Source: Chondrosia reniformis (taxonomy: Eukaryota; Porifera; Demospongiae; Chondrillida; Chondrillidae). Taken from it: a stretch of 64,000 nt of DNA. The notes under the pieces were generated by a model. That model saw only the letters and a program-made list of their open reading frames with translations. It was not told the origin of the DNA and searched no databases. Of the stretch, positions 21,208 through 64,000 are shown piece after piece (position 1 is the first letter of the stretch; each line of letters starts with the position of its first letter). The position numbers were made by a program, and so were the translations under genes. The stretch lies in contig OX359201.1 of assembly GCA_947172415.1 (NCBI GenBank), forward strand, positions 62,001 through 126,000, read 5' to 3'.

Positions 21208-23213
21208 ATGCGTTGCCGAATTTACTGGCTATGGATCAGTGTATTATCCATTCAGTTTCTAGCTCGAGGAGAAGGTAACAGTAACTAGACTATTATAATG
21301 AAACATACATACCATAAAGTAGGCCTATGCAAGAATACATTCAAGTCTTTTTGAATAATAGTCGTACACACTGCATGTTGGCCTGTTTGCCATTTCTTGG
21401 ACTCAGAGACTCGCCTATATGCTATTGGGTCGTACATGTGATTGTCTGTACTCTACCATACAATTCATGGTATATACAACACTTATAAAGGACTGTCTGG
21501 CGACCCTCACAATGAATGTGATCAGAGCAAGTCACCTCTGCGGGTTGTTGGTTTACTTGATGGCATTACAGCATATGACTTATCATATGGAAGATTAGAA
21601 GGACGCAAAGTAGATGGCCCATGGAGACCCATTTGTGCTGCTCATGAAAACTCCTTTAGTGCTGAAGATGTTGATGTAGCTTGTTACCAGCTGGGATTTG
21701 TAGGTAGAACAGAAACAAACAGGAAAGCCTGGGAAGTGTGCAGTGAATCAGATATAGCAGATTGTTTGGAATCAAAGTCAGATGACTACTGGATGGGTGA
21801 TATAAATTGCAAAGGGACAGAGTTGTTTTTGTCAAATTGTCCACACAAAAAATCAGAATGTAGCAATGCACACAAAAATGATGTGGTGATCACTTGCTCA
21901 GGTATATTTCTACTGTAACAAAGTATGTGACCAATTGGTATACATATAATATTTAATCATGACATCAAAACAATTCAAAATTCTACATATATAAAAGATG
22001 AGTGGCACAATTTATGACGTTATTTTATACTTGTTCTGCTAATAGCATGTAATTCCAAACAATATTAATGAAACTGCATACATTTCTGACTTTATTCTTA
22101 GAAACGTTACAAGTTGCACTAAAGGACACTATGAGCCATGATGAACTTGGTGTACTTCTTTATTATTACAACCAAACATGGACTGAAGTGTGTCTACAAA
22201 ATGATAACACCATTAACAACACTGGGAAGGTTGTATGCAGACAATTAGGCCTAGGTGTCCCCGACTATCGTAGCATTAGTGTACAACCAGCTGATATCAA
22301 TTCAGAGAGTCAGTATTTGGTGACAGATGCTCAGTGTACTGGGGACGAGGAAGCTCTGAGACTATGCAATCACACTATGTGGCAAATTAATGAGACTTGC
22401 AATGGTAACCTACTGTGGGTGGAATGTCAAGGTATTTGAACATAGCACACCTTAAGCAGTAGAACATATACATACAAGTATATACGTTTATGAAGATAAA
22501 TATTTTATATATATATACAGTGCAAGTTACAATATACTAAGGTAATCTGATATAAATAAATAAATATATATATATTAGGTCCATTTATTAAAAGTCTTCA
22601 TGGAGAAAACGCTGATTATACTGCAGTGAAATTGACATGGAAAATCCCAATGCCTTTGGTCTATTATCCAGCTGTTTCTGGATATGTAATCAGATATACA
22701 TCCTCTAAATCAGGCAATAAAACCCAAATTCTGTTAACAAGTGCATCAAAGGAAGGCCGTGTCACTGGGCAAGTGATAGATCTAACGTATGATGAAGTGT
22801 ATACTTTTAGCGTTGCAGCTCAGTTATCGCACGGAACAGGACCTTTTAGTGATCCGGTGACTGTGACGACAAGTCACAACCCTTATCTGTATTCCTTTCG
22901 GATTGCAACAATATTCCTCGGTATCACAACAGGTGTGCTGTTGTTGATCTGCATGGCACTCTGTCACTGTGCCTGCAAATGGTAAGTACATATACATGAA
23001 TATTCTTATAACCTTTATATTATGTAGATATTTATAATTCTCCAACATAGCTTTTGCTGTTGTGAGCGGGAAGATGGGAAGATACGTTTTCAGTGTCAGG
23101 CTCCGTTTCAGCTCCGGTCTAGCGAGACACGTTTTGAACGTTGTCAGCCACATTTTAAATGCTGCTGCAAAAAGTCAGAATATTCTTCTCTTAAATCACA
23201 AGTGGCTGGTTGA
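21208..23213 (+). CDS. Solitary SRCR-SRCR-FN3 transmembrane receptor
   Basis: This is a predicted cell-surface receptor. Exons are 21208-21279 (signal peptide, WLWISVLSIQFLARGE), 21491-21901 (SRCR 1), 22102-22431 (SRCR 2), 22579-22981 (FN3 plus membrane helix) and 23051-23213 (tail). All junctions keep phase, and the first three introns are phase 1. SRCR 1 carries VACYQLGFVG and NCKGTELFLSNC; SRCR 2 carries VVCRQLGLG and QCTGDEEALRLC. The FN3 contains KLTWKIPMPLVYYPAVSGY. The helix (IATIFLGITTGVLLLICMAL) leads into CHCACKWCFCCC, a likely palmitoylated juxtamembrane cysteine cluster. The tail has more cysteines (RFQCQAPF, KCCCKK) but only weakly resembles the tails of the cluster at 44-64 kb. 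Unlike those genes it fuses FN3 and membrane helix in one exon. The ligand is unknown. Confidence 0.88.
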
Positions 23214-30545: not shown

Positions 30546-33170
<2,625 letters not shown>

Positions 33171-44537: not shown

Positions 44538-47382
44538 CTAATCTTCACCTCCATCACACACATGTCCCTCAATCTGGACATATCCACCATTTAGCATTCT
44601 TTCTCTTCTGTCTTTTCTTTCTCTAAAGTTGGCATCATAACATTTACAACACTCAAAAGGATCACGTGGACAAGGACTGTCTCTCCTTTCAAAGGGGCAT
44701 CTGAAGAATGTCTTTCGTCTCCCATTTTCAAATCGTCTATACCAACACCTACCACTACATGACAAGGGGAGCGAGACCCTAAACCATCATCATCATCATC
44801 ATGAATATCATTTTAGGTTGACTATGTAACATTGATATTCTACAATATGTATGTATATACGTATATCAACTACAGATTGTACTACGCATGTTAATAATTA
44901 GAAGAAGAAATTGAATGATTTATAACCTTGAATTGAGGTTTCATAAATATAGGTCACATTAAGGGGTCCCCACTATAGAGCTGTATAGTATACAGGTGAA
45001 TTATATGCTATATATACAGTGTGTATTATTCAGTATACTGTACATGTGAACATGTAAATGTACACAATTCACTAGTAAGTAGTTGTCTCACCACTTTGGC
45101 CTATAGACACAACACAGTAGTAGACAGCAACAGCTTCCAAAGAGAAGGGACAGTGTACCAAAGAATGCTGCCAATATTTCGAGGAGAGGAGGTCCAGCTA
45201 TATACATTATACAAGAATGATTTACATATATATGTACATATACATTACATTATATATATATATATATATATATACCACATACGTATGTACTGAACTCAGA
45301 TATTTAAAGAGTATATATATACAGTATATATAAATTTGTGTAGCCCTCTGTATATATGTATACTGTAAATCCCTCTATTTAAGTGGAACCAAAAGTTAGC
45401 AAAACTGGATTTTACTCCTACATAGCGGAATTAAATTTTAGCAACTTACAAGATTATGGAAGTTTTGTTAGTTAATTACAGTAATGCAGTATAGTAGAAG
45501 TACTATGAACTCTAATTTTAGCAGTAAATGTCAAATCACTAATATAGCTACATTTATTAGCACGCTAATAATTTACAATATATTTTTCTGAAACTGATCA
45601 GAGTAGTATAAATGTATGTATAATCTTTATTTACTTTTGGCATGTACTTCTATACTGTATGGTCCACTTTTAATTGGAAAGTTTGCCTTCACTTTAAAGG
45701 TGTACCAAGTGTCTGGTTGTAAATCAAGAACTCTGGCTGTGACAGTATCGTTGTTTGAAGCATAATATATAAACATTTTATTTCCGGATGTGTCAGACTT
45801 GTACCAAATGCTGTAAGACTTGATGACTGGGTAATAGAGAGTCTCTTTAGGAACTGTCCAGGACAGTGTCGCAGTGTATATGTCAGTAGATACAACATGA
45901 AAATTGTCAGGTTTAGGACCTGCAGAACAGAAGAATAATATATACAGCCCATTGTAGATCTCATTGATTATATAAACATGCAGTTGTGGATGGAGTAAAC
46001 TTTGTACATATTTTCAGGATGGGCCTTTCAAAGTGGTCGGGTCAAGTTACATCCAAGACTCAAAAAGAAGACAAAGACTCCTAGAGTCATTGATGAAGGA
46101 TGGAATATACTCAGAAACAGCAGACTGGTCCAGTGGAGAAAGTAAGATAGGAAGCCTAACTGTATATATGATAACCACAGTTTTGGAATATAGTGTGTAC
46201 ATATTAAGCCAGCTGGTTTGCACAGACAACACTTACCAACACAATCCACCCACACAGCTTGGCCAATGCAAGCAGTGTCAAGAGTCGTCTCCCATATGGT
46301 TGAGGAACATAGTCGCAGAGCGGTTTCATTTCCATTACATTTAACATTAGTGACTAAATTGTGTTGTGATTCACGAATGGTAGCAATTGTACTATTATCT
46401 GAATATCCTAGTCCCATTTGTCTACAAACCACATTACCAATTTTATCAACTTCTTGTTGTGCAGGTTCCCCCACAAGGCACAGCTGGCCCCACGTGCCAT
46501 TATAATAGTGCTTGACCCAGCCAAGGTCGTCATTCTCACTCAGATATACTAGTTTCACTTGCAGTAAGTCTATAGATATATAGGGAGGCAAAGTGATAGT
46601 TGATATAATGTAACATCAATACATCTAAAATTTGCTAATGAAATAGGTATTGTTCTGTTTCAGCAACATTGCTCAGACAATGTAATAGTTAGGTAAAAAG
46701 ACATATAGCCTATCAATTTGACAAAAAGAACTAACTCTAAGCCATTTATACGTTAATAGTGTAAGGATTTCATTTATATGTATATTACACAGGTTTCAGG
46801 TGTACATTGTATATTATTAGCGGTATATGACTGACTAGAACAGGTCAGGACGACTCTTCTTGCTGGTAAACAGGTAAAACAATTTACTATAGATTTATCA
46901 TCTGAAGAGGATTCATTGGGACATAATCCAAAGTACTTTTCACTTCCCTTGCAATTTACATTGGATAGCAAATTACACTGTTCATATAATCCACATGTGT
47001 CATCGTCATGACAGGATTGCCAAGGATCCTCCTTTGCACTCCCACCAAAGTTGAGCTGATAACATGCCACTTCTGAATTTGGTTCATTATGTACTATACT
47101 ATCCCTGGTTCTACACACTGTCATCCAAAATTTATTATAGCATATCTCCAGCCTTCCACTGATACCAGTTACATTATGCTCTTTTGTGTCAGCCAGTCTT
47201 AAAGGAGCTCTTGAGATATCTCCATTGTAGTCACACTTATATTCTACACATAAAATAAAGGGAGAGATTGGAGGATAAAGAGTATAGATTATAGAGGAAT
47301 AGTACTTACTTTCTATTTTAAGTCCTGAAGTTGTGGCCATCAGTGTTAGAAGTCTCACTAAATACCAAACAATTCCCTCCAT
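44538..47382 (-). CDS. SRCR receptor A (SP-SRCR-SRCR-FN3-TM-Cys tail)
   Basis: This is a complete predicted type I receptor. Exons are 47382-47310 (signal peptide, IVWYLVRLLTLMATTSG), 47243-46836 (SRCR 1, with an extra cysteine-rich insert YFGLCPNESSSDDKS), 46569-46237 (SRCR 2, NVVCRQMGLGYSDNS), 45919-45635 (FN3, ATLSWTVPKETLYYPVIKSY), 45197-45092 (membrane helix, ILAAFFGTLSLLFGSCCCLL then LCCVYR) and 44778-44538 (cytoplasmic tail). Extracellular introns are phase 1. The tail contains FFRCPFERRDSPCPRDPFEC and ends DGGED, TAG. All splice sites are GT-AG. The tail module is shared with genes C, D and E. It is the only intact A-type copy; two dead A-type copies lie upstream. Ligand and signalling partner are unknown. 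Confidence 0.88.
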
Positions 47383-48277
47383 TTCAATTCGATCTTTTCA
47401 ATTCAGGAAACACATAAATATAACTTTTATTGGGTAAGCCCCCAATGTGACTGCAATGGAATGCTATGAATATCATTATTTACAATATGAAAGTAAAAGT
47501 CTCATCTGTATGCAGTAAGTAAGTAAACAATGAATACTATCATAAACAAAAACGCACTCCACACCATGTACCATCTATCTGTACCATAGATCAAATGATT
47601 TAATTGACTTACCTTGAATCACATCACTGAATTCAGAACTATATGCAAGGTTGTTTTAAAGATCAGCAAATTACATGCACACATCTGTTAAGGTTAACCC
47701 AGGATTGAGTGGCATGGATGGAGATAAAGATTAGAGCTGGTTATATAAATTTGATATAGAGTATTGGACAGATTTTGTTATAGTCATACAGTGATCTATT
47801 CTATATGTTAACAGAATATATATTGAAAACAAGCTTTAGAATTTTCAAACTTACTCAGGCTTATTATTTGTGTAGCAGAATTGTATGATCTGTAGAACTA
47901 CTTGCATGCTTCAGTTTAGAACAGTGCTGAATTTTGCACAAGGTATTTAATGGTTTTAAGAAATTACATACATGTATGTATGTATATGTCCAGTTAATTA
48001 ATCTGACAACATCAATATATTGTCAATTTACGAAACTCGTCACCTGGAAGTTGAATGTAAAAGGATATATTTACAGTTCTAAAATATGTAGTTTAAACAG
48101 CATATCCATATACCTTTTCATCATGAACGCAACAAATATTGTTTCATTACCTATATAGAGCTATACGTATATGTCAAGTACATAAATGTTACTGTATTAA
48201 CATACGTATAGTGTAAAGTATTAATTTTGAACCCTTCCTGGTGCAACATTTGCAATTCCATCCTATTCCCCTTGAAC
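47383..48277. other. AT-rich gap between receptors C and A
   Basis: About 900 bp, AT-rich. It must contain the receptor A promoter and the receptor C 3' UTR. Next to the A start it resembles the flanks of the dead A-type copies (compare 52790-52870 and 59330-59420). I see no further gene. Confidence 0.45.
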
Positions 48278-51200
48278 TCATCCTTGTCCACCATTTGCAC
48301 CATATCCACCATACCAGCGCTCAAAGGGATCGGACCAACAAGGTGGGTCCCTCTTAATAAAGGGACATCTGAATCCTTTACGTTTGTGGCATGACTGGTG
48401 GTTACGTTTGTTGTACCAGCAGAACACACTACATGTAGGGAGGAGGACTAATCTGATGCAATCTGCAAATGGTATATAAATAATATATAATTGAATTACA
48501 CAATCATTTTACACTGATATATAATACTGATTGTGACAACCACAATAGTTGCTTAGCCTAATTACAGCAAATGTTCTACTGTCCATCACTTTTAAGTGCA
48601 TCAAGGTCTTTGTGGAGAGCTTCTGGCATCAGTGAAGGGACAGACCCAGAAAGTATGCTTGACGTCCAAGAAAAGTAATGCAGCAGACTTGACACTTCTC
48701 AATTATCGTATGTACTAAAACCTTTAGCAAGTGTAATGTTTGTGAATTCCCCAAACTTCAAATTTAATTCCTCCCAAACATGCATTTCTGGTTATACCGT
48801 ATCAGAGATACATTTCTATGTTTTGGGTGTTAAATATTAAATTGACATTCTCGCGATACAAAAGATTAATGATACGCTCGGTAATAAAAGGTCTACCAAG
48901 ATGGACGTTAATATGACTGCTTGTTTGAATGTCCCATGATGATGGACGTTGTCCTAAGTCCTAAGGCCCAAACCTGATCTTGGGGCGCTTGATAAGGCCA
49001 CTCCAAATTACACTTTAGTTTCCCGTCCCCGTTCCCCAGGTGCCAAAAAGCATGCAGGAGGGAGGGCATTTTAATTATTCATTATTTCATTATTTTACAA
49101 TAATAGTGTATGCAAGAAGGTAAATGGACAGGAAGTGTATAAATAGATAGTCTTCAATGTATTATTAATTAATAATCGTCCACCGAAGAAGCATCTGAGT
49201 GCAACTAACATCAAAAATGCTTGTGTTTACCAGTGTCATAGTCTTCACATTGCTGTAGGACTAGCTGTAGGAGACCATGAGGTGAATGTGACAACGAGAG
49301 CACACACTACACGTACTTCACACACCGCAAAACGCTTTATTAGGGTTTTTACAATGGGTAATACTGGTATAACTGATATATAATGAAAACAGCATGCAGG
49401 TAGCTTCCTGTAATGCATGCGGGCAGTGGACGGGAAACTAGAGTGTAATTTGGAGTGGCCTAAAGAAAAACATTCCAGCCACTTTCACACATCCAGTAAG
49501 TTACCTACATTGAAATGCCAACCTTCATTCGATGCCTCAATGTTACCCTTTTAGGGTGTGGAGTATGATAGCCTCATAGCCCTTTTGCAACTTTAGCTAT
49601 ATTTGACACAAAATTTGGAAATGGGCCGCAAAAGACCCAAAAAATTCTTGGTGACACCTCAATCTTGATTCGACTCCCTACCGACTGGATCATAAACCTC
49701 GCTTCCGCTATGCTCGATAATAATAATATAATTTTGAGGGTTCCTAAATCACATTAAGTAGTCCCAACTAGCTATAGCTATTTTGGTATATAGAGGAGAT
49801 ATGCATGTGTATATATACAGGTGAATTATATGATGTATTATTCAGTATACTGTATATATGTGTGTAAACATGTAAATGTACACAATTCACTAGTAAATAG
49901 TTGTCTCACCACTTATGCTCATAGACACAGCACCAAAGTATGCAGCTACAGCCACAGTACCAACAGCAGAGAAGGGACACCACAGCAAGGAATGCTTCCA
50001 ATGTTATCACAGAAGGTGGTCCAACTATAGATATATTATACAAGAATGATGTATATATGTTCATATATAAATACATATACATGTGATAAAGAGGAAGAGG
50101 AATGCTACAGATATGATGTAATAATTCCTACCACCAGTGGATTATCTATTTCATATTTCAATTAACTAAAGAATCTGATATCAATATTACATTTGCAAAC
50201 TACATAAAATGCACTGCATATCACTTGTAAATTCATCATACAATGCACAAAATTGTAACTGTAAAAAGTACATGTGTATACCCTCTGTGTCTGTTGTAGT
50301 TGATGTAGAGTATGGTCCAACATTTGCAAATTCTGGATCAAAGGCTACAGCAACTTTAAATGTATACTTGGTCATTGAATCTAAAGCTGGAACAGTCACG
50401 GTTGGGTTGGTTGAAATGGATTGGGAGTGATAAGTCTTTGTTCCAGACTTTTCTGATGTATATTCCACAGAATACCCATATATGAGAGCATAATAATCCA
50501 GTTGCGCAGGAACGGACCATGTTAAAGTAACAGAGTCAAAGCTAGTTGAAACAACTGCTAGATTATCAGGTATTGGGCCTGCAAAGCAGAATATCAGTAT
50601 AATATTATAGTGTTAATAATAGGCACAGTGATAGGGCAGCTTTTATAAGGAACGTATATAACAAAGGTCTGAGCTTACCAGCTGATTAATGTGACTAACT
50701 TTTAATTACTGACTACTTAATTTTGACATGTAGGCAAAATTAAATCAGTCCAAATTACCAAATATTCTTCCTGCCAATATTTCATATGTCTGGCTATACA
50801 GTGTTGCGAATTTATAATCTTAACACCTCTACACTTCCTTTATTTTACCCAGAAGATGGCACAGTCTGCAGCTTGTGTTTTAACCCGTACCCGTACTTGT
50901 CATTCCCCGTAAAAGAGTTGGTATAAAATTTACAGGCAAACTCTCCTGTGTGATATGGAGAAGAGGAAATTTATGAAAGCAACCAAAACTCCACATCTAA
51001 TCAACATCTATAAGTGTGGAAACCAGCCAGCCAATCCATTATCAACTTCCAACTCTTCCACCCATTCACCAATATCCATCCCCCCCATCTGCTCATCACC
51101 TAACCTTCTCACTCACGCAAAACCCTCCACCACTTCAACCCAGCCCACAATCACCTAATAACTTCACCACACAATCTCCATCACCAAACTCTGATCCTAT

Positions 51201-52490
51201 TCCACCACAATCACCATCACAGTCACCACCATCTCAGCAGGTTACTAGGTTCCTATGCCTCCCTCAAAGCCTGCCGGTTTTCCTGATCAACGTCGTAGCA
51301 AGGAACGAAAAAGATGGGTTCATCAGACTAGATGGACTCCTTAATTGTGGTGTTCTTCACGCCCGGCTAATTGTCAGCCTTATGACAGGCACTCTAGTCC
51401 ACGTTTCGGGTCGATCGCACGGAAGCTGTAAATTATAGTATATAGCCGAATCGAGCTGTTTATTTGCGAACAAATTGAGGATTTCAGCCGAGTCGACGAA
51501 AGATAGATTATGCTCACCCCACAGAATATAACATTTTTAATAGTATATACCTGCACACTTGACCCAGATGGGAATCATTGGTTCTTGACAGGTGGTAGAG
51601 GTGGCCCAGAGACTTCTGCTGCAGAGACTCAGTTTTGTTTCATTTCCTTTACAGTTTACATCAGTAACCAAAAAGGTACTGAATCTACTCTTACCTTCAG
51701 CGAAAGGATAAGAGCCATTCTGTATTGCTGCACCGAGTCCCAACTGGTTACAGATAACTTGTGCATTGTGCTCTGTCCATCCACTAGCACACACTCCTCC
51801 CCAGGTTTGGTTAAAATAGTAAGCCAGTACGCCCTGACGATCTGTCAGTGTAGTATCCTCAAGATGAGCCTGCAAGTCGTCTAAATAATTAAAGTTTAAT
51901 ATTGTAGTTTACTTAATGTGTATAGTTTATTTGCACTGACTAGCACAGTTCACAAATATGTTTCTCTTATGAGAATCTGTACAAGATCCTGAGGTAATTG
52001 AACACTGTCCCAAGTACTCCTCATCGCCAGTGCAATTTACAGATTTAATCCAGGGAGGATCTGTTCCACATTCACTATATCCTTCACAGTACCTCCAGTA
52101 ATTATTCACTGAGCTACCAGACCAGCCAAGCTGATAACAAATGACTTCTGAATCTGCCTTAGAGAAGGTGTTTTTCATTTGATAAGGCACGCAAGCACTT
52201 CCCCACTCCCCTTCTTCAGTACAGCCTTGCAGTCTCCCTTGTGGCAATTGGGTTCCCTTTGGGCTAGTAAGCTGAATAGGGACTTTTGTAGGGTCACTGT
52301 TATCACATTCTATATTAGTCGCAAGGCATATAATACCTATAGACAAAACAACAATATATATATCCTACTACTTTTTGATACTGTGAAGCTATAGTTTTCA
52401 TATCAAAAAATTAGTATATAGCAGCATTAGTAGAATCTTTTTAATATTGGTAAACATAGCTAACCAGATGCAGCCAGTAGTGTTGAGACC
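48278..52490 (-). CDS. SRCR receptor C, 5' end damaged
   Basis: Exons are 52336-51941 (SRCR 1, EVICYQLGWSGSSVNN), 51880-51551 (SRCR 2, QVICNQLGLGAAIQNG), 50578-50282 (FN3, LAVVSTSFDSVTLTWSVPAQ), 50024-49910 (membrane helix, TLEAFLAVVSLLCC) and 48452-48278 (tail, RCPFIKRDPPCWSDPFE). The leader exon is broken. At 52490-52462 the end of the D-type leader (VVSTLLAAS) is present, but its upstream part and ATG are replaced by a piece of an A-type exon, leaving no in-frame start. The membrane exon joined to the tail through the stronger donor gives a TGA at the junction; the weaker donor 3 nt upstream keeps the tail open. A MITE (48996-49460) and about 0.9 kb of unidentified sequence (about 50610-51500) sit in introns. 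The copy may be inactive or may use a new leader. Confidence 0.65.
48996..49460. mobile_element. Harbinger-like MITE with 33-bp terminal inverted repeats
   Basis: The element starts GGCCACTCCAAATTACACTT and ends in its inverse complement. The inverted repeats match over about 33 bp with one mismatch (48996-49028 against 49460-49428). It is flanked by TAA on both sides (48993-48995 and 49461-49463), a 3-bp TWA-type target duplication. The homologous intron of gene D (56565-56580) reads CTTGATAAAACATTCC without the element, giving the empty site. It is 465 bp long and encodes no transposase. Confidence 0.88.
50610..51500. mobile_element. About 0.9-kb insertion of unknown type in receptor C intron
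   Basis: The SRCR 2-FN3 intron is about 970 bp in gene C but only 65 bp in the sister gene D, and the flanking sequence is nearly the same in both. The extra DNA has a different composition. Part of it (51030-51240) is a CCA/TCA-rich stretch that translates to Pro/Ser-rich peptides, followed by a GC-richer part (51240-51440). No terminal repeats or target duplication are clear, and the open frames carry no domain that I recognise. It could be a decayed transposon or processed fragment. Confidence 0.5.
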
Positions 52491-52770
52491 ACACTTATAT
52501 TCTACACATTAAATAAAGGGAGAGATTGGAGGATAAAGAGTTTAGATTATAGAGGAACTTACTTTCTTTTTCAAGTCCTAAACTTATAAATTGTTTAGTA
52601 ATATTATATATACATGCAACTATATCAAACATTTAATTGTAATATGTCTGCATTAGCAACTTGCAACTATTTACAGTATCCCTGGCGTAGCACTTAGCTG
52701 TATCGTATCCTTTTGTGTGGCCATCAGTGTTAAATACCACACAACTCCCTTCATTTTAATTCGATCCTTT
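52491..52770 (-). pseudogene. Remnant of an A-type receptor (exon 1 plus start of exon 2)
   Basis: At 52754-52716 the A-type leader (MKGVVWYLTLMAT) is recognisable and then changes into unrelated sequence. At about 52560-52495 the A-type first intron end and the first bases of exon 2 appear, fused directly to the C leader. The SRCR 1 body is deleted. It is the counterpart of the longer dead A-type copy at 58889-59288. Confidence 0.75.
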
Positions 52771-53367
52771 AGCACAATAGCTATTGTGGAAGGCCCAGTA
52801 TTAGACTGTGGTGATGCTATGAATATCATTATTTACAAAATGAAAGAAAAAATCTCATTAAGAAAGTAAACAATGAATTCTATCACAAACAAAACATACT
52901 CCACACCATGTACCATCTATAGCTATATGTATTATTCAGAAAAAATGTATACACCATCTACTATATATCTATCGATAGAAGAATTTGAACATGCAACAAT
53001 TACCATCTAGGCAGACACACAGCTAAGTCCATTAATGTCTCTTTGCCAATGAAGATATAATTGGATGGAAATGGATTTATATAATTCTAATATAAACCCT
53101 TTTAACATATGCACTTATATATATTAACAATTACATCTCCGATGTATAATAGAGCTGCAACAGTATTACCTCTTAGTGCATGTGGCTTGTTTTGATTGGG
53201 TTAACATACAAACAGGTATGAATATGATTAACCTAATTACATCTGCAATTTGGAAGCCATAATTTGACTAATAGAAAACTTGCATAAAACAGGATACATA
53301 TTAACAAAACATTTTTTAGTTTTTAATTTATACAATCAATAAATCTTCATATATACAGCTATAATCT
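52771..53367. other. AT-rich spacer downstream of receptor B
   Basis: About 600 bp without genes. It is near-identical over most of its length to 59340-59867 downstream of the dead B-type copy, which supports duplication of the whole unit. Confidence 0.7.
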
Positions 53368-54933
53368 TTATCCTACTCCAGGCAATTTCACATACTCTCT
53401 ACGACATGTATATAGTTGGCGAACCAGACTACAGTGAGCAAATATATGTATATATGTACATAATTACAGGTATAATAATAAATAAATCATGTATTATAAG
53501 TTTAACATATATACTTCTGTATATGCACAAGTTATAATATACAAATAACACAGCACCACTTACCAGATTATTACAATTACTAATATTAGTACAAGCAGAC
53601 CGCCACATGCCAGACCGGAAGCTAGTTCAATTATAGATACATCAAGCCAAGGAGCACTGGTACTATACTTATAGGATCTGGAGCTGTAAATGGACAAGAA
53701 ATATACAAACTAGATACTTGTTAATCAAACCCATATCTCCTAACTCACCAGGACTGATTTCATCTTCAGTACTGACTTTTATGGTCTCACTAAATGGACC
53801 AGATTTTGTCTGAAAGAATGCTTGTACTTTCAGTTCATACTGAGTTGAGGGCTTCCTGTTGGTGATGTTAACCTTGGTGGAATTAGATGGAAACGTAAGA
53901 GATTGGACAGAGGGGCCAAGTTGGTATTGTACAATGTAGAATGTAATGGCTGGATAGTATTTCAGCTGTTCGGGGATTCTCCAGGTCAACTGTATTGCAG
54001 TTGAAGATGAGGTGGCATTAAGATCGGTAGGTCTGGTACCTATGCATTCATCAATGTCACCAATTAGAGAGATAGGTTAAGAAGTATACACTTTACTGAC
54101 CATTGCAATCCACCATTATTGCTTTGCCGTTACATTTCGTAGTTGTGGACCAAATGTATGAGCACTCATTCAAAGAACTTTCACTACCTGTGCATTCACC
54201 CTTGGTCAACTCCAGATAATTGTTTCCCTTTGGGGACTCAAGTAGTGTTCGTGTTGGGTCTCCTAGTCCCAGCTGTCTGCAGATAACTCTTCCAATATAG
54301 TCATGTTCCGTCTGGTTTGTTGTGCTATCAACACAAACTTGTCCAAATGTGTTATTAAAATAATAGTGAATAGTTCCAATCGTCTGTGCTTGGTAGTCAT
54401 TACTGTAATGGAGAGCTGCCTGCAAACGGTCTATATATTCAGAGTGCAGAGTGCAACATTAATACTTTCACAGTTTGGCACATATAAATGCTGCATGTAT
54501 ATTACTACTTTAACTCACCAGTACAAAATATGACTACACCATATGAGTTAGGGCAATCTTCAGTAGTTTCGGGATCAATGTAACACTTTCCAAGGTAGCG
54601 TTCTGTTCCCTTACAGGTTACCCCACATATCCAGGGGTGCGAAGTATCGGGAGCGCAATTGTTGGTCTCTTTGCAAAACTGCCAGTTTGACCCAGTTTTT
54701 CGAGCTCCAGCGAAACCAAGCTGAAAACAAGCGACTTCAGAATCAGCTTCGGTGAAATTCTCGTGTGCTGCACACACACTTCCCCATTCTCTAGTAACAC
54801 TCGAGCCTTCCGTGAGAAGGCATTCGGGGACAAGCTGCAGTGGTGCAGTGGGAGTTACATCATTTTTACCGACACAGATTGATTTCACTGTAAGTAGCAA
54901 AGCGACCACTCGAAAGAACGGGTAAGCTGCCAT
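53368..54933 (-). CDS. SRCR receptor B, short cytoplasmic tail
   Basis: Exons are 54933-54519 (signal peptide FFRVVALLLTVKSICVG plus SRCR 1, EVACFQLGFAGARKTGSNWQ), 54430-54101 (SRCR 2, RVICRQLGLGDPTRTLLESP), 54039-53749 (FN3, IQLTWRIPEQLKYYPAITFY), 53621-53564 (membrane helix, ACGGLLVLILVIVIIW) and 53428-53368 (tail). The acceptor of the membrane exon at 53622-53623 was chosen because upstream AGs give early stops. The tail is only about 20 residues, ending CRREYVKLPGVG and TAA. It lacks the cysteine-rich CPF/DPF module of the neighbours but carries YVKL, a possible YxxPhi endocytosis signal. Leader and SRCR 1 share an exon, unlike genes A and D. Confidence 0.85.
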
Positions 54934-55393
54934 ATGACCCAGTAGTGTAGTAGCTATAGCGCCTTCCGAGCCACCTTGTCTGATTAAAAACTATATGAAT
55001 TATTCGCTGTTTTATTGAGGACAAACCATCAGGTATTGCAGATAACATTATTGATAGATATAAAAGTGCCTGCTGCATTGTGCTTTGTGATACCAAATAT
55101 TACTTCATTTCATTTTAACCAGGAAAGCCCCATCAGCTCAATAAAGCTGGTCTATACCTGGGGGTCCTTACATACAACATTAATATATTGCAATACTTAT
55201 ATTTTAGAAACTGAGATTTGAAATGCTGAAGAAGACCTACTGGTTGAAACTTTCAAATCTCTGTTTCTCAAACATAAGTGATGTTCAAATGTATCATCAA
55301 TTAACGCAACAAACAACCCCTATTGTTTCATTTACCTAGAGCGCATGCAAGCCTAAAGTAATAAATGTTAGAGTATTAACATATAGTGTAAAG
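54934..55393. other. Gap between receptors D and B
   Basis: About 460 bp, AT-rich, holding the presumed promoter of receptor B and the 3' UTR of D. A stretch at 55240-55300 (CTGTTTCTC...AACATAAGTG) recurs at 61845-61870 before the tail of gene E. No gene is visible. Confidence 0.45.
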
Positions 55394-58300
55394 TTATTTT
55401 TTATTTTGAACCCCTCCTTGTCCACCATTTGCAATTGCATCATATTCCCCGTGATCTCCTTCTGGTCCACCAATTGCATCATATCCCCTTTGATTTCCTT
55501 CTTGTCCACCATTTGCACCATAGCAGTGCCCAAAGGGATCATGCCAACAAGGTGGGTTCCTCTTATTAAAGGGACATCTGAGTCCTGTACGTTTTCGGCA
55601 TGACTGGTGGTTTTTTTTGGTGTAGCAGCAGAACACACTACATGTAGGGAGGAGGACTGGTCTGATGCAATCTGCAAATGGTACTTATATAAATATATAT
55701 CTGATTCCTTCTAATTTGGAAAAGTAGGGGAACTTTAAGATCTTTAAAGCTGATCTTATTGCATTGGGAGTACGGGACTAATGGACTTCCAGGGTCACTA
55801 ATGAAGGGTGGTATTCCCAGAAACTCTTGTTTCCTCATCTAAACTGTATACTGTAGAATAGATTTTGAACATATTGTAGGAAAATGGTGCTCATTAATTT
55901 ATTGCAAACCTGATGCATGTGATGTGATGTGTGATGTGTGCTATTGCAGCACTGCAGATGGTACTGCAAGCACTATACGAAAGTCTAGTTTGTTCCTGGT
56001 TGATTTAACAGACCTACTTAGGAGCTTTATTGCAAGCAATCAGAGATTGAGGATAAAATAAAATTTGCCATAGTGCATGGTGTTCGGAAGTCTTACAAGA
56101 AGATTTCACTTTATCTCAACATGCGTCTACCTTAAGCTTGGGGTTTGTGAATTCCCCCAAACTGCAAGCTGCATAATTTAATTCCTCCCAAACATTTCCG
56201 ACTATATGGTATATCTAAAGGGACATCCCTGATTAATTGAAAATTGATGATGATGATGAACCAAAGAGTATATAAAAAAGCGAGATCATGAACTGTGTTC
56301 ACAACTATGGTATAATAATAACACAGGGTGTGAACACAGTTCAGACCCTCACTGCTATGAAATGTAACATGCTATATCGTTAAATTGAAATATGGACATC
56401 AATATGGCTGCTTAATTGTTTTGAGTGTCCCAAAGAGGAAATTAGCAGTCCCTGCTTTTCCAATAAATAAATAAAACGGAACCTGTTTTCCACAGGAAAG
56501 TTTAATTTAAAGTAATTTCAAGAGGATGAATGTTATCCTAAGGCCAAAATCAATCTTAGGGTGCTTGATAAAACATTCCAGCCATTTTCACACATCCATT
56601 GAAATGCCAATCTTCAATCAATGCCTCAACATTGCCCCTTTAGGGTGTAGAGTATGATAGCCCTTTTGCAACTTTAGCTATACTGGACAGAAAGTTTGAA
56701 GTGGGCTGTAAAGACCCAAAAATTTCTTGTTGACACTTTAATTTCTATTCGACTCCCTACCCGACTGGATCATAAAATCTTGCTTCCGCTTAATTCAGCT
56801 ACTCTTGGTAATAATATAACCTCAAGGGTTCCTAAATCATATTATGTATAGTCCCAAATATAGAGATGAATAGCTATTTTGGTATATAGAGAGAGATATG
56901 CATGTGAATACAGCTAGGTGAATTATATGCTAAATATGCATGCGCAGTATGTATTATTTGGTATACCATACTGTACATGTGAACATATAACTGTACACAA
57001 TTCACTATTAAGTAGTTGTCTCACCACTTTGGCTCATAGACACAGCACAGTTGAGAGCAACAGCCCCAGAAACAGTAATAGCAGAGAATGCAAACCACAC
57101 CAAGGCCTACTCCCAATCCTATCACGACAGGTGGTCCAACTATAGACATATTATATACAAGAATGATATACATATGTACATATATAAATACATATACATG
57201 TGATAAGGAAGAGGAATGCTACAGATATGATGTAATTCCTACCACCAGTGTGGATTATCTATTTCATATTTCAACTAACTAAAGAAGCTGATATCAATAT
57301 TACATTTGCATACAAACTACATAAAATGCACGGCATATCACTTGTAAATTCTCGAATACCATGCAATGCACACTGTAAAAGTGCATGTATATACCATCTG
57401 TGTCTACTTCAATTGATTTGGAGTATGGGCCAACATTTGCAAATTCTGGATCAAAGGCTACAGCTACTTTAAATGTATAGCGGGTGTTTGCATCTAAAGC
57501 AGGAACAGGCACGGTTGGGTTGGTTGAAATGGATTTGGAGTGATAAGTCTTTGTTCCAGACTTTTCTGATGTATATTCCACAGAATACCCATATACGAGA
57601 GTATAATAATCCAGTTGTGCAGGAACCGACCATGTTAAAGTAACAGAGTCAAAGCTTTTTGAATGAACTGCTAGATTATCAGGTATTGGGCCTGCAAAGT
57701 AGAGTATCAGTATAAAGATAGATTATGCTCACCCCACAGAATATAATAATATTTACCTGTACACTTGACCCAGATGGGAATCATTGGTTCTTGACAAGTG
57801 GTAGAGGTGGCCCAGAGACTTCTGCTGCAGAGACTCAGTTTTGTTTCATTCCCTCTGCAGTTTACATCAGTAACCAAAAAGGTACGGAACCTATTTCTGC
57901 CTTCAGCGAAAGGATAAGAGCCATTCTGTATTGCTGCACCAAGTCCCAATTGGTTACAGATAACTTGTGTATTTTGCTCTGTCCATCCACTAGCACACAC
58001 TCCTCCCCAGGTTTGGTTGAAGTAGTAAGCCAACACTCCCTGATGATCTGTTAGTCTAGTATCCTCAAGATGAGCCTGCAAGTCAACTAAATAATTTAAA
58101 GGAATTAAATTTAATATTTGTAGGCTCCATAATACATACATATATATAGAGAGAGTGGTTTATTTGCACTGACTAGCACAGTTTACAAATATGTTTCTCT
58201 TATGAGACTCTGTACAAGATCCTGAGGTGATTGAACACTGTCCCAAGTACTCCTCATCTCCAGTGCAATTTACAGATTTAATCCAGGGAGGATCTGTTCC

Positions 58301-58738
58301 ACATTCACTATCACCTTCACAGTACCTCCAGTAATTATTCACTGGGCTACCAGCCCAGCCAAGCTGATAACAAATGACTTCTGAATCTGCCTTAGAGAAG
58401 GTGTTTTTCATTTGATAAGACACGCAAGCACTTCCCCACTCCCTTTCTTCAGTACAGCCTTGCAGTATCCCTTGTGGTAGATGGGTACCCTTTGAGCTAG
58501 CAAGCCGAATAGGGACTTTCTTAGGATCACTGTACTCACAATCTTTATTAAATGTAAGGCTACCTATATAGATAAAAACAACAGTGATACTGTGAAGATA
58601 TAGTTTCATATCAAAAAGTAGTAGCACCATTAGTATAGATACATGAGATGGTATAATGAATCTTTTTAATATTGGTAAACATAGCTAACCAGCTGCAGCC
58701 AGTAGTGTTGAGACCACTAGCACTGGGCGAATGGACAT
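55394..58738 (-). CDS. SRCR receptor D (SP-SRCR-SRCR-FN3-TM-Cys tail)
   Basis: Exons are 58738-58690 (leader, MSIRPVLVVSTLLAAAG), 58564-58174 (SRCR 1, EVICYQLGWAGSPVNNYWRY), 58086-57757 (SRCR 2, QVICNQLGLGAAIQNG), 57691-57395 (FN3), 57139-57025 (membrane helix, VVIGLGVGLGVVCILCYYCF, then CCSQLCCVYE) and 55661-55394 (tail). Extracellular introns are phase 1. The tail reads NHQSCRKRTGLRCPFNKRNP, then PCWHDPFGHCYG, and ends in Gly/Asp-rich repeats (GGQEG, GGPEGDHGEYD). The best-scoring donor of the membrane exon (GTGAGA at 57024) would make a TGA with the tail acceptor. The donor 3 nt upstream (GTGGTG) gives an open tail. D is the closest relative of C, and the two lie in equivalent places of a duplicated unit. 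Confidence 0.83.
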
Positions 58739-58888
58739 TTCATACAACCTGGACAACACAAGGATCTATACAGTCTCTACTCTAACTGCCACTGCATTAT
58801 TTATACTGTTCAACAGCCCCCCTCTGAGTGGGGTTTAAGGGGTGGTTCTACTAATACAGATAAAGTTGGTCTTGTTTTATGAATACAC

Positions 58889-59288
58889 TTATGATATTCC
58901 TGCATGGGTGGCAAAACCATACACAACTTGATAGTTGATATATGATCTCTTTGCACTCCCACCAAAGTTGAGCTGATAACAAGCAACTTCCAAGTTTGGT
59001 TCATTAAATACTTTACTATCCCTGTTTCTACACACTGTCATCCAAAGTTTATTATAGCATATCTCCAGCCTTCCACTGATACCAGTTACATTATGCTCTT
59101 TTGTGTCAGCCAGTCTAAGCTCTTGAGATATACGTATATCTCCATTGTAGTCACACTTATATTCCATATACACATTAAATAAAGGGAGAGATTGGAGGAT
59201 AAGGAGTATAATAGTAGAGGAACTTACTTTCTATATCAGCTCCTAAAGTTGTGGCCATCAGTGTTAAATACCACACAACTCCCTTCAT
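58889..59288 (-). pseudogene. Truncated A-type receptor copy
   Basis: Exon 1 (MKGVVWYLTLMATTLGADIE, from 59288) and the first half of SRCR 1 (YKCDYNGD, NVTGISGRLEICYNKLWMTV, EVACYQLNFGGSAK) are well preserved relative to receptor A. The SRCR domain is cut after GGSAK, and the frame runs into unrelated residues and a TAA at 58889. SRCR 2, FN3, membrane and tail exons are absent, and the leader of D follows 150 bp later. It is a deletion-generated relic. Confidence 0.82.
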
Positions 59289-59867
59289 TTTAATTCGATC
59301 CTTTAGCACAATAGCTATTGTGGAAGGCCCAGTATTAGACTGTGGTGATGCTATGAATATCATTATTTACAAAATGAAAATAAAAATCTCATTAAGAAAG
59401 TAAACAATGAATACTATCACAAGCAAAACATATTCCACCCCATGTACGTATATACCATCATAGCTATATATCTATCGATAGAAGAATTTGAACATGCAAC
59501 AATTACCATCTATGCAGACACACGACTAAGTCCATTAATGTCTCTTTGCCAACGAAGATATAATTGAGTGGAAATGGATTTATATAATTCTAATATAATC
59601 CCTTTTAACATATGCACTTATATTAACAATCACATCTCCGATGTATAATAGAGCTGCAACAGTATTACCTCTTAGTGCATGTGGCTTGTTATGATTGGGT
59701 TAACATACAAACAGGTATGAATATGATTAACCTAATTACATCTGCAATTTGGAAGCCATAATTTGACTAATAGAAAACTTTGCATAAAACAGGATACGTA
59801 TTAACAAAACATTATTTAGTTTTTAATTTATACAATCAATAAATCTTCATATATACAGCTATAATCT
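59289..59867. other. AT-rich spacer downstream of dead B-type copy
   Basis: About 580 bp without genes, closely matching 52760-53367. It includes the same ATTGTGGAAGGCCCAGTATT stretch next to the A-type leader as in the other unit. Confidence 0.65.
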
Positions 59868-61835
59868 TTATCCAACTCCAGGCAATTTCACATACCTTCT
59901 ACGACACGTATATAATCGCCAAACCAGACTACAGTGAGTAAATATATACATTTATGTACATAATTACAGGTACAATAAACTGTAATATAACTGTAATATA
60001 TATATCTTCTTCTTTACTCCTTGTCCTCATGGACGTTGGGCAGGATCAAGTTGTTACACTTCGTCACGAATTAGGATTGGGTTGACCTGGGCTGGTGGAT
60101 AGCATTTCGCCATGCACTTCTGTCTGTCACCACTTCTTGCCATTCTGGGATCTCAGTTAGGTCTCTGCTGATGACATCCACCCACCGCAAGCAAGTCCCT
60201 CCCGGCCTCCTCTTCTTTCCTCTCAGTCTGCACCGCAGCAGTTGCTTCTGTGGTCAATGGTCTGGCATCCTCTGCAGGTGCCCAAACCACTGGAGCCTCT
60301 TCAGTCTCAGTTGCTCTTTGATTGGCAGCTCTCCAGTCTCCTCTAGTATGTCAACATTGCACCGCATATCCCACAGAGTCACACCCACGATGTCCCGAAG
60401 GCATCTCATCTGGAACGTCTTCAGTCTCCTGATGTCTTGCTGGGTTACCGACCAGGTCTCTGCCCCATAGAGGAGCACCGACATGACCATTGTCCGAAAG
60501 ACCTGCACTTTGGTTCTTCTGCTGAGGTTTCGACTCTTGAACACCTTCCTTCTCCACATTTGATAGACGGTGGTTGCCTTCTCAATTCTGATCTTCACAT
60601 CTTTCTCCACCCTACTCGTCTGCTCTACCTCACTTCCCAGGTAAGAGAAGGAGTCCACTTCCTCAAGTGCCTGGCCTTTCAGTGTGATGGCTGGGTGGTC
60701 TCCTGGTGTTTCCCCAATGCTGAGCACTTTGGTCTTGTCCCCACTGATCGTCATTCCCCATCGGGTGCAAGCTCTGTCAAGGGCATCCAGCATCTGCTGT
60801 AGCTCCTTTCTGTTCTCTGCCATGAGGGTCAGGTCGTCTGCATACTGGGTATTCTGGATGCAGGTGGTCAACGGGGTCTTGTCCCTGTATGATAGGAACA
60901 GACCTCTGCTGGTGGTGTACTCAACATGCAGACCTCCTCCAGTCATCTCCATGGCTTCCCTTAAAATCCTGTCCATGAAGCAGTTGAACAGGAGAGGAGA
61001 CAGGATAACTGTAATATATATATACCATAAGCACATTCACATAAGTTATAAGTTCAACACAATAACACAGCATCACTTACCAGATTATTACAATTACCAA
61101 TATTAGTACAAGCAGACCGCCACAGTTTTATTTTATGGTCTCACTAAATGGACCAGATTTTATCTGAAAGAATGCTTGTACTTTCAGTTCATACTGAGTT
61201 GAGGGCTTCAACTTGGTGATGTTAACCTTGATGGAATTAGATGGAAACTTAAGATATTGGACTGAGGGGCCAATTAAGTTGGTATTGTACAATGTAGAAT
61301 GTAATGGCAGGATTGTATTTCAGCTGTTCGGGGATTCTCCAGGTCTACTGTATTGTAGTTGAAGATCATCGGGTCTGGTACCTATGCATTCATCAATGTC
61401 ATCAATTAGAGAGATAGGTTAAGAAGTATGCAAAGAACTTTCACTACCTGTGCATTTACCCTTTCTCAACTCCAGATAATTGTTTCCCATTGGGGACTCA
61501 AGTAGTGTTCGTGTTGGGCCTCCTAGTCCCAGCTGTCTGCATATAACTCTTCCAATATAGTCATGTTCCGTCTGGTTTGTTGTGTTATCAATACAAACTT
61601 GTCCAAATGTGTTATTAAAATAATAGTGAATAGTTCCAACCAAATGTGCTTGGTAGACATTACTGTAATGGAGAGCTGCCTGCAAACAGTCTATGTATTC
61701 ATATATATGGATCATAGTTTATTATAAATGCTGCATGTATAGATTATATACTACTTTAATTTACCAGCACAAAATTTGACTACACCATATGAGTTAGTGC
61801 AATATTCATGATTTTCGGGATCAATTGTTGGTCTC
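59868..61835 (-). pseudogene. Dead B-type receptor copy, interrupted by a LINE
   Basis: Pieces of receptor B are found in order: the 3' end of SRCR 1 (about 61830-61757, internally deleted), SRCR 2 (61695-61440, lacking its last third after TGSESSL), FN3 (about 61384-61126, with small deletions and shifts), part of the membrane exon (61125-61078, its acceptor lost by fusion to the FN3), and an intact tail exon (59928-59868). A LINE fragment sits in the membrane-tail intron. With no leader, a truncated SRCR 2 and lost splice sites, it cannot make a B-type receptor. Confidence 0.85.
60006..61004 (-). mobile_element. 5'-truncated non-LTR retrotransposon (LINE) fragment
   Basis: A minus-strand frame (61004 to about 60254) encodes the C-terminal part of a reverse transcriptase: LSPLLFNCFMDRILREAM, the catalytic YADDLTLMAE, GMTISGDKTKVLSIGE and VEKDVKIRIEKATTVYQMW, then the thumb/C-terminal QMRCLRDIVGVTLWDMRCN. 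After a stop or shift near 60254 a basic tail continues (RRPGGTCLRWVDVISRDL, TDRSAWRNAI). The 5' part (endonuclease and most of the RT) is missing. A 19-bp direct repeat, ATAACTGTAATATATATAT, flanks it at 59987-60005 and 61005-61023. No poly(A) is seen at the 3' end, which reads GGAGTAAAGAAGAAG. Confidence 0.9.
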
Positions 61836-62029
61836 GTTCAGATCTCTGTTTCTCGAATAGAAGTGTTGCTGATGCCCAAATATATTCATCATGAATGCAT
61901 CAAAAAAACTATTGTTTCATTTACCTAGAGCTATATATGTCATGCATCTTGCAAGCCCTAAAGTATAACATGTGTATATCTAAATATTATAATAGTGTAA
62001 AGTTGAACATTTCCTGGTTCAACATTGCT
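61836..62029. other. Spacer between E tail and dead B-type copy
   Basis: About 190 bp, AT-rich, resembling the 55240-55390 flank of receptor D. It is probably the 3' UTR of E. Confidence 0.45.
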
Positions 62030-64000
62030 TCATTCCCTTTGAATTCCTTGTCCACCAATTGCATCATATTCCCCATAGCAGTGCCCAAAGGGATCGTAGC
62101 AACAAGGTGGGTCCCTCTTAATAAAGGGACATTTGAATCCTTTACGTTTTAGGCATGACTGGTGGTTATTTTTGTTGTACCAGCAGAACACACTACATGT
62201 AGGGAGGAGGACAAGTCTGATACCGCAAACATACAAACAAATTCAGAAGGAATCATATATATATATATATATACATGTACCATTTGCAGATTGGTAATTA
62301 TATTTTGGAACTTGTAGTAAAAAGTGAAGTTTGTGGTCATGTTTGTGATTTATACTGATGTATGTAATACTAATTATGACAATCACAATAGCTGCTTAGC
62401 CTAGTTACAGCAAGTGTTCTACTGTCCATCACGTTTAAGTGCATCAAGAATGCCAGCCTTTGTGGAGAGCATCTGGCATCAGTGAAGGCACAGACCCAGA
62501 AGGCAAGCTTGACCTCCAAGAAACGTAGCACAGCAGAGATCTGGTTCACACTTCTTAACTATCACAACTAAACTTTTAGCAAGTGTGATGTGTGTCATAT
62601 TATGAACTTACAGTCTTGGTCTGTATATGCAGCAACAAAATATTATCACTAAAACAGCTGCAATGGTAAATACAGTTCCAAGGGTTGCTACTACTATAAC
62701 TAGTGGATTAACTGTATATAAGAGAATATCTAGAATATATAATGTACATACTCTATTACACTGTACAGAGGAGTTAATATGTAATTTATAGGCCATGTGG
62801 TCCAGTTTACAATCTGCATGTATATAAGTTTATAATGCTCTATGTGTATATACATGCCTAAAGTTCAGGCATGGAACTGACACTGTATACACATAGTTTT
62901 ACACATGGGTACATATATGTATACCTATTGTTTTTGCTTCAACTGATTTGGAGTATGGACCAACATTTGCAAATTCTGGATCAAAAAAGGCTACAGCCAC
63001 TTTAAATGTATACTTGGTCACTGAATCTAAAGCTGGAACAGTCACGGTTGGGTTGGTTGAAATGGATTGGGAGTGATAAGTCTTTGTTCCAGAATGTTCT
63101 GATGTATATTCCACAGAATATCCGTATATGACAGCATAATAATCCAGTTGCACAGGAACAGACCATTTTAAAGTAACAGAGTCAAAGCTAGTTGAAACAA
63201 CTGCTAGATTATCAGGTATTGGGCCTGCAAAGCAGAGTATCATTATATAGTGTTAATTAGAGAGATAGGTGAAGAAGCATGCACTTTACTGACCTTTGCA
63301 ATCCACCATTATTGCTTTGCCATTACATTTCGTAGTTGTGGACCAAATGTATGAGCACTCATTCAAAGAACTTTCACTACCTGTGCATTCACCCTTGGTC
63401 AACTCCAGATAATTGTTTCCCATTGGGGACTCAAGTAGTGTTCGTGTTGGGTCTCCTAGTCCCAGCTGTCTGCAGATAACTCTTCCAATATAATCATGTT
63501 CCGTCTGGTTTGTTGTGTTAACAATACAAACTTGTCCAAATGTGTTATTAAAATAATAGTGAATAGTTCCAACCGAATGTGCTTGGTAGTCATTACTGTA
63601 ATGGAGAGCTGCCTGCAAACGGTCTATATATATATATATTCAGAGTGCAGAGTGCAACATTAATGAAAAGGAAACTTACCGAGTCACATAAGAGGATACT
63701 TTCACAAATGCTGCATGTATAGATTACTACTTTAATTTACCAGCACAAAATATGACAACACCATATGAGTTAGTGCAATCTTCAGTAGTTGCGGGATCAA
63801 TGTAACACTTTCCAAGGTAGCGTTCTGTTCCCTTACAGATTACCCCACATATCCAGGGGTGCGAGGTATCGGGAGCGCAATTGTTGGTCTCTTTGCAAGA
63901 CTGCCAGTTTGACCCAGTTTTTCGAGCTCCAGCGAAACCAAGCTGAAAACAGGCGACTTCAGAATCAGCTTCGGTGAAATTCTCGTGTGCTGCACACACA
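62030..64000 (-). CDS. SRCR receptor E, chimeric, 5' end outside the window
   Basis: Exons are 64000-63741 (3' part of SRCR 1), 63623-63294 (SRCR 2), 63224-62925 (FN3), 62711-62612 (membrane helix, NPLVIVVATLGTVFTIAAVL then VIIFCCC) and 62216-62030 (tail). SRCR 1 and SRCR 2 are nearly identical to receptor B (EVACFQLGFAGARKTGSNWQ, RVICRQLGLGDPTRTLLESP). The FN3 (LAVVSTSFDSVTLKWSVPVQ) and the tail (KCPFIKRDPPCCYDPFGHCY) belong to the C/D type. The frame is open across all junctions, with phase-1 extracellular introns and a phase-2 tail junction. One extra Phe (FFDPEF) is present in the FN3. The leader is beyond the right edge. Confidence 0.82.

Follow-up and report, generated by a model that had tools for sequence, protein, structure and literature searches.

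How do the large families of scavenger receptor cysteine-rich (SRCR) genes in sponges come to differ from one copy to the next? The question is raised by a locus of the demosponge Chondrosia reniformis, in a stretch of 64,000 nucleotides (C13:62001-126000, C13 being contig OX359201.1) that is called the window here. On its minus strand, genes for proteins with two SRCR domains and one fibronectin type III (FN3) domain stand head to tail. The answer to which we are led, and which we consider probable, is that the locus is a subtelomeric tandem array of fast-turnover type I single-pass recognition receptors, diversified by copy turnover and cassette exchange.

Organization of the array

The odChoReni1.1 assembly, for which RNA-seq and an Ensembl annotation are also reported, comprises 117.37 Mb in 14 chromosomes plus the mitochondrial genome; chromosome 13 is put at 6.9 Mb and chromosome 14 at 6.75 Mb (PMC12181767). 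The genome profile searches covered 117,379,552 bases in 15 contigs, 6,903,244 of them in C13. The first kb of C13 holds 165 copies of CCCTAA, that is, telomere repeats at the contig start, and because the contig opens in this way the array is placed about 106-147 kb from the chromosome end. A tblastn scan with exon translations of genes A, B, D and E was run over 134 kb, which is the window plus the adjoining stretch beyond its right edge (local coordinates continue the window numbering). It found 11 gene units, all minus-strand, between local 44.5 kb and about 85 kb. An earlier note on this DNA had claimed a tandem minus-strand cluster of about 20 kb; the tandem array is real, and at about 40 kb it is twice as long, crosses the window edge and ends at about C13:147 kb.

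In the order 5' to 3', the units are G1, G2, G3, G4, G5, G6, G7, G8, G9, G10 and G11. Four are of D type (G2, G4, G7, which is gene C, and G9, which is gene D), four are of B type (G3, G5, G8 or gene E, and G10 or gene B), G6 is a chimera and G11 is gene A. Four times a B-type gene comes after a D-type one (G2-G3, G4-G5, G7-G8 and G9-G10), and turnover of the array would proceed through duplication of this two-gene unit. Direct repeats of 68-300 bases stand in register, with copies 66-99% alike (20 of 25 repeat families listed); judged by their length, they are too long for chance. A separate observation concerns the DNA between the D-type tail and the start of the following gene, where 52716-53478 and 59250-59978 are 92-99% alike (repeat families D7, D8, D10 and D11), perhaps as a shared promoter or just as a young duplication.

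The plan of a unit is signal peptide, SRCR, SRCR, FN3 and membrane helix, with phase-1 introns in the extracellular part. It is best seen in gene A, whose spliced model has 481 residues and five introns, all GT-AG, with phases 1,1,1,1,2:

47310..47382, minus strand, exon 1, signal peptide (splice model, ATG, GT donor, phase 1)
46836..47243, minus strand, exon 2, SRCR1 (Pfam SRCR 34.8 bits on 122 residues; AG/GT, phase 1)
46237..46569, minus strand, exon 3, SRCR2 (Pfam SRCR 42.9 bits; splice model)
45635..45919, minus strand, exon 4, FN3 (Pfam fn3 32.3 bits; splice model)
45092..45197, minus strand, exon 5, membrane helix, phase 2 donor (best 19-residue Kyte-Doolittle mean 2.2; splice model)
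44538..44778, minus strand, exon 6, Cys-rich cytoplasmic tail and stop (splice model; B tail query matches, E 6.2e-5)

Gene E gives a spliced model of 391 residues in which 4/4 introns are GT-AG and phase 1. It lacks the Cys-rich tail because the junction of helix and tail reads TG|A, a stop:

59228..59288, minus strand, exon 1, signal peptide (splice model)
58949..59164, minus strand, relic of an A-type SRCR1 exon in intron 1, truncated, acceptor lost (also in G3 and G5)
58174..58542, minus strand, SRCR1 exon (splice model)
57757..58086, minus strand, SRCR2 exon (splice model)
57395..57691, minus strand, FN3 exon (splice model)
57021..57139, minus strand, membrane-helix exon, read to its own stop (splice model)
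55394..55661, minus strand, tail exon behind E, out of frame reach

Pfam matches and splice models confirm the shared domain plan and the phase-1 introns. All six array SRCR exon translations pass the Pfam SRCR cut-off of 26.1 (34.8-69.6 bits), and all three FN3 exon translations pass the fn3 cut-off of 25 (32.3-43.7 bits); the one tail exon tested has no Pfam match. The FN3 fold is also found in an AlphaFold model of B's FN3, with a predicted local distance difference test score (pLDDT) of 91.3 and FN3 domains as top Foldseek matches, while the SRCR model (mean pLDDT 38.1) was not used. A signal peptide and a single membrane helix are seen by hydropathy in A, E and G6, and by reading in a plus-strand gene described below; D fails in this respect. 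In G6, as in A, 5/5 introns are GT-AG; those ahead of the helix are in phase 1 and the one between helix and tail is in phase 2. The plan is present in full in A, E, G6 and the plus-strand gene. That every gene uses it, as had been stated, is too broad: with its tail it is complete in A and without a tail in E, whereas B has a disrupted first exon, D a broken frame, and C is dead.

The product would carry two divergent SRCR domains held outward by one FN3 stem, followed by the membrane helix; some copies end in a short Cys-rich tail. No ITAM- or ITIM-type (immunoreceptor tyrosine-based activation or inhibition) motif follows the helix in A, E or G6; short Tyr-x-x-hydrophobic motifs are present and are too common to weigh. 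No known signalling domain was seen behind the helix, where one tail exon was compared with Pfam, so signalling would go via partners, if it occurs at all.

Exchange of exons between copies

The clearest product of exchange is G6, which occupies 64000-62027 in the window and is whole once its 5' part beyond the window edge is included:

63741..64000, minus strand, SRCR1 exon, D type, cut by the window edge (blastn, splice model)
63294..63623, minus strand, SRCR2 exon, D type (92.8% to G2 over 64542-63255; splice model)
62925..63224, minus strand, FN3 exon, B type (91.7% to G5 over 63257-62920; splice model)
62612..62711, minus strand, membrane-helix exon, G1 type (98.6% to G1 over 62727-62588; splice model)
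62027..62216, minus strand, Cys-rich tail exon, in frame, with its own stop (splice model)

G6 is a three-parent chimera, with D-type SRCRs, a B-type FN3 and a third type of helix. Its tail exon is nearest that of G3 (87.6% over 62221-62032). The first type switch, at about 63.2 kb, and the gap at 62.7-62.9 kb that holds the second, both fall in introns.

A second case is the FN3 exon of G3. At the 26 informative sites inside FN3, 24 favour B and 2 favour E, while at the 187 sites outside it 162 favour E and 25 favour B (Fisher 4.9e-16); the longest run of B-like sites, 19, was reached in 0/20000 shuffles, which assume independent sites. The B-like tract is about 330 bp long (local 76847-76516, outside the window) and includes three E-like sites. 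Against E, the FN3 exon of G3 is 91.2% identical over 297 bases, and the introns on either side are 96.9% of 65 and 96.4% of 220. Because the G3 FN3 is also far from E's, G3 as the receiver is the simplest reading. Neutral ageing was considered as the sole cause of this divergence and rejected, since the flanking introns have diverged less than the exon and G3 agrees with B in its FN3.

Gene A resembles different units at its two ends: from about 47577 to 47032, at its 5' end, it is 77-80% alike to the B-type genes G3, G5 and E, and in the helix and tail region, over 45250-44497, it resembles G5 (80.8%). For the part in between, blastn at E 1e-8 gave no match to the units in rows of at least 80 columns. 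Further, intron 1 of G3, G5 and E holds half an exon of A-type SRCR1 that has lost its acceptor, which on its sequence is a trace of an older first SRCR.

Head-to-tail paralogues and mosaics between copies thus occur together, which makes this a tandem, exon-exchanging array, and the mosaic of G6 and the FN3 tract of G3 bear out the exon-level exchange that the earlier note had proposed. The mosaic products are seen directly. As for the processes behind them, unequal crossing-over and short-tract gene conversion may have joined or swapped whole domain exons at phase-1 introns, by which the frame would be kept.

Damaged copies

Copies that lose out decay in place, as the damaged units of the array show. 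The earlier note had counted A, B, D and E as structured genes. A and E are uninterrupted from start codon to helix, whereas B has a disrupted start and D a break of frame. The units that read through are A, E, G3 and G6; G1 was left out of the scoring of intact and broken copies.

Gene B is open from the SRCR1 exon through the helix:

52716..52754, minus strand, signal-peptide exon, broken after 13 codons (tblastn scan, unit alignment, frame reading)
51941..52309, minus strand, SRCR1 exon (Pfam SRCR 42.0 bits; open frame)
51551..51880, minus strand, SRCR2 exon (Pfam SRCR 69.6 bits)
50282..50578, minus strand, FN3 exon, 98.7% identical to the G3 FN3 exon (Pfam fn3 33.4 bits; conversion test)
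49906..50024, minus strand, membrane-helix exon, read to its own stop
48281..48451, minus strand, tail exon behind B, out of frame reach (TG|A junction)

The tail of B is lost in the same way as that of E: the helix exon ends in TG, the tail acceptor is followed by A, and a stop arises at the junction. The junction is open in A, where the next base is G, and in G3, where the exon ends in CG.

Gene D is open through SRCR-SRCR-FN3, and its frame stops ahead of the helix because the helix exon has 120 bases against 115 in the sister unit G2. As it stands, D might encode a secreted SRCR-SRCR-FN3 protein:

54519..54933, minus strand, fused signal peptide and SRCR1 exon (Pfam SRCR 45.0 bits)
54101..54430, minus strand, SRCR2 exon (Pfam SRCR 42.0 bits)
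53749..54039, minus strand, FN3 exon (Pfam fn3 43.7 bits)
53564..53683, minus strand, membrane-helix exon, frame broken (120 bases vs 115 in G2)
53368..53428, minus strand, D-type short tail exon

Gene C (G7), already described as damaged, is indeed broken in SRCR1, SRCR2 and FN3, and G4 is likewise dead:

59871..61825, minus strand, dead unit C with D-type SRCR1, SRCR2, FN3, helix and tail fragments (lesions in common with G4)
60254..61036, minus strand, reverse-transcriptase fragment of a retroelement, between the helix and tail pieces of C (Pfam RVT_1 52.3 bits)

G4 and G7 have a truncated SRCR2 and a broken FN3 in common, so that an already dead gene was probably duplicated. There is a stop in the signal peptide of G2, and G5, which was modelled in part, has no AG at the aligned tail acceptor in the unit alignment.

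These lesions also bear on whether the array is an artefact of assembly, in which haplotype copies set end to end, or haplotype switches, would mimic extra units and chimeras. The genome report describes the removal of 4 haplotypic duplications in curation (PMC12181767), and some blocks of the array are 97-99% identical. Against this stand the absence of any N in the 134 kb read, the differences of the units in composition, lesions and relics, the same old lesions of G4 and G7 in different neighbourhoods, and a primary consensus quality reported as 69.8 (PMC12181767). We give such an artefact hardly any credence.

Constraint on the domains

Pairwise ratios of amino-acid to silent substitution (omega) were estimated for the four B-type genes, with G6 added in the FN3 set (five genes). 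Omega is 0.17-0.57 for B-type SRCR1 and 0.17-0.36 for B-type SRCR2 (6/6 pairs each), and 0.89-1.66 for FN3 (10/10 pairs). In the codon model, where the omega of 1 comes with kappa set to 2 as well, fixing omega at 1 costs 3.8 log units for SRCR1 and 14.6 for SRCR2, and 0.04 (four genes) or 0.26 (five genes) for FN3. Distinct changes number 35 nonsynonymous (N) and 11 synonymous (S) in FN3 against 35 and 30 in SRCR1 and SRCR2 together (Fisher 0.018, a post hoc comparison that ignores shared ancestry). Judging from these substitutions, the B-type SRCRs are constrained and the FN3 is free to change, or pushed to change. Positive selection on FN3 was tried as an explanation and is not supported, as the model with omega at 1 fits equally well.

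On the FN3 model, 15 of the 22 changed sites (10-14, 44, 68-71 and 92-99) lie in turns or in and around the first and last strands; by a reading of the FN3 fold they are predicted to lie toward the membrane end. For the B-type tail exon, omega is defined in 9 of 10 pairs and ranges over 0.41-2.21; the tails of B and E, which are not read, are part of this set. The single pair for the A-type tail differs by 9 amino-acid changes and no silent one. D-type FN3 exons were left out of the table of omega.

Several of these results weigh against the array as a set of receptors diversified by turnover and exchange. Two of the 11 units (G4 and G7) are dead, three more (G2, D and B) carry damage, and G5 has no AG at its aligned tail acceptor. 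For FN3, the log likelihood is -623.32 with omega at 1 and -623.28 with omega free, so relaxed constraint fits as well as diversification. D-type SRCR1 is less constrained (omega 0.43-0.84 in 6 pairs that include dead and damaged copies, with G7 left out), and D-type SRCR2 has no constraint (1.23-1.83 in 3 pairs with 7-10 changes each, with G4 and G7 left out because they are truncated).

Such results would be expected of neutral birth and death, that is, of an ordinary family of SRCR surface receptors in a recombination-prone subtelomere, where duplication, conversion and decay would merely follow from the location and the swapped cassettes would have no selective meaning. At least five of 11 units (G2, G4, G7, D and B) dead or damaged, an FN3 omega near 1, and a subtelomeric place with minisatellites and retroelement debris nearby all agree with it, and neutral decay does explain part of the data. 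The constraint on the SRCR exons of the B-type genes speaks against it, and so does the FN3 exon of G3 and E, which is more diverged than its flanking introns and points to conversion, not ageing alone, even if conversion can be neutral. As an account of the whole locus we find it rather unlikely.

A bolder version of the receptor reading takes the SRCR pair as a conserved head and FN3 as the diversified module, spread by conversion as a ready-spliced cassette, with helix and tail types mixed separately. At present this must be called quite doubtful.

Relatives in the genome

The window also holds a member of the same plan on the plus strand. It is intact, with 4/4 introns GT-AG in phases 1,1,1,2, and its FN3 and helix share one exon:

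21208..23213, plus strand, member of 457 residues (Pfam SRCR 51.1 and 51.2 bits, fn3 26.8 bits; splice model)
21208-21274, 21491-21901, 22102-22431, 22579-22981 and 23051-23213, plus strand, its five exons, with FN3 and helix in 22579-22981

Its tail is 20% identical to the B tail, with some Cys and a PF pair in common, so the two may belong to a broader family of tails. In the genome, the Cys-rich tail exon of B finds 7 matches at E 0.01 or better, 7/7 of them at C13:106.6-144.7 kb. The order SRCR-SRCR-FN3 was also met at C13:182-184 kb, several times at C13:389-416 kb, and at C14:5.237-5.239 Mb; four aligned units at C13:401-416 kb are 97.2-99.7% identical.

Genome-wide, there are 893 SRCR candidates, of which 150 were scored; all 150 pass the cut-off and none of them is on C13. 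The array SRCRs are divergent, with 34.8-69.6 bits in six exons against at least 109 bits for the 150 listed genome candidates. As a side observation, 25 of the listed SRCR exon matches, with similar scores, recur about every 545 bases in C3:6337224-6350581, where there may be a single SRCR-repeat gene that is very long or has recently expanded; C3:6405545-6409318 has a comparable run.

Comparison with known SRCR systems

Pahler et al. in 1998 reportedly described a putative multiadhesive protein of Geodia cydonium with fibronectin, SRCR and complement control modules. Going by its title, that protein combines fibronectin-type and SRCR modules as here, and adds the complement control module. 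Among the 26 distinct sequences matched by profile A2, CD163 (M130) chains are the best (2.1e-87, 9 stretches). Mammalian CD163 (M130), CD5-like, CD6 and DMBT1 have the SRCR domain in common with the array, and no orthology is claimed. We know of no mammalian scavenger receptor among the matched molecule names that is built as SRCR-SRCR-FN3.

The nearest parallel comes from Amphimedon, where 158/296 SRCR genes are reported in tandem arrays, some with two SRCR domains, e.g., on scaffold NW_003546273.1 (PMC10855680). Those arrays are like the present one in their tandem, two-SRCR units, in the signal peptide and membrane helix found in the family, and fibronectin is named among the modules joined to SRCR (PMC10855680). 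The passages of that paper on the arrays give no SRCR-SRCR-FN3 subfamily with a Cys-rich tail and no FN3 conversion, and they state that most linked sponge SRCR domains take three exons, unlike the one exon per SRCR here (PMC10855680). In the sea urchin, tandem expansion of SRCR genes (253/359) with exon loss and shuffling between siblings is reported; it is independent, and 15 genes of a 16-gene scaffold hold SRCR domains only (PMC10855680). SRCR domains number from hundreds to thousands in sponges. Stylissa has 2166 SRCR-like domains, and co-occurrence of SRCR and FN3 is known from the genomes and transcriptomes of Stylissa and other sponges (PMC4772301), including Aplysina and Dysidea (PMC6208332) and Halichondria (PMC8242945). 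In their passages on these proteins, the reports give domain co-occurrence only, with no locus, domain order or exchange (PMC4772301; PMC6208332; PMC8242945). The earlier idea that both architecture and arrangement are undescribed therefore holds in part: sponge SRCR and FN3 proteins (PMC4772301; PMC6208332; PMC8242945) and tandem two-SRCR arrays (PMC10855680) are known, while the open-licence papers searched yielded no account of this locus, nor of FN3 being exchanged among SRCR genes.

With regard to function, recognition of microbes is the usual proposal for sponge SRCRs (PMC4772301; PMC4850255). Most likely, the SRCR pair of intact copies would bind microbial, particulate or cell-surface ligands, and copy turnover together with swapping of FN3, helix and tail cassettes would diversify the receptor set.

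Could the array instead be an allorecognition locus, with polymorphic receptors or ligands for self/non-self between sponge individuals and FN3 or SRCR as the specificity module? A mosaic, duplicating array of single-pass ectodomains would suit such a role, and allorecognition loci of other animals are highly polymorphic. However, the words 'scavenger receptor', 'SRCR' and 'fibronectin' are absent from the main text of a paper on the Amphimedon grafting transcriptome (PMC5450542), and we regard this role as very improbable.

Genes beside the array

A DAXX-like gene (window 42741-44009) directly flanks the array on the opposite strand; it encodes a DAXX histone-binding domain (Pfam 70.9 bits) together with a long acidic repeat. 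Farther away, a 15-base minisatellite of about 29 copies (31012-31449) lies in frame within a DEAH-box helicase frame (30534-33170), where it inserts a long stretch between the DEAD and Helicase_C matches. In window 1-44000, 30/30 tandem-repeat rows scoring at least 150 (some overlapping) are below 43.8 kb, several of them within open reading frames. An alpha-L-fucosidase exon is found on the minus strand at 8979-9497 (Pfam 201.4 bits), and close to it a minisatellite (8249-8402) sits in reading frame 8234-8755. GC content is 0.44-0.53 in 1-16 kb and 0.32-0.44 in the array.

Implications

One means by which large sponge SRCR families could diversify is the trading of domain exons among genes that lie side by side. 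The present locus shows such exchange directly, in a three-parent chimera with breaks in introns, a conversion tract of the size of an FN3 exon, and relic exons left behind. In one subfamily it is FN3, rather than SRCR, that looks like the freely changing part. If the FN3-cassette idea were true, it would mean modular germline diversification, perhaps of self/non-self recognition, in an animal group that branched off among the earliest. With RNA-seq and haplotype data reported for this sponge (PMC12181767), recognition diversity in sponges becomes testable at one mapped address.

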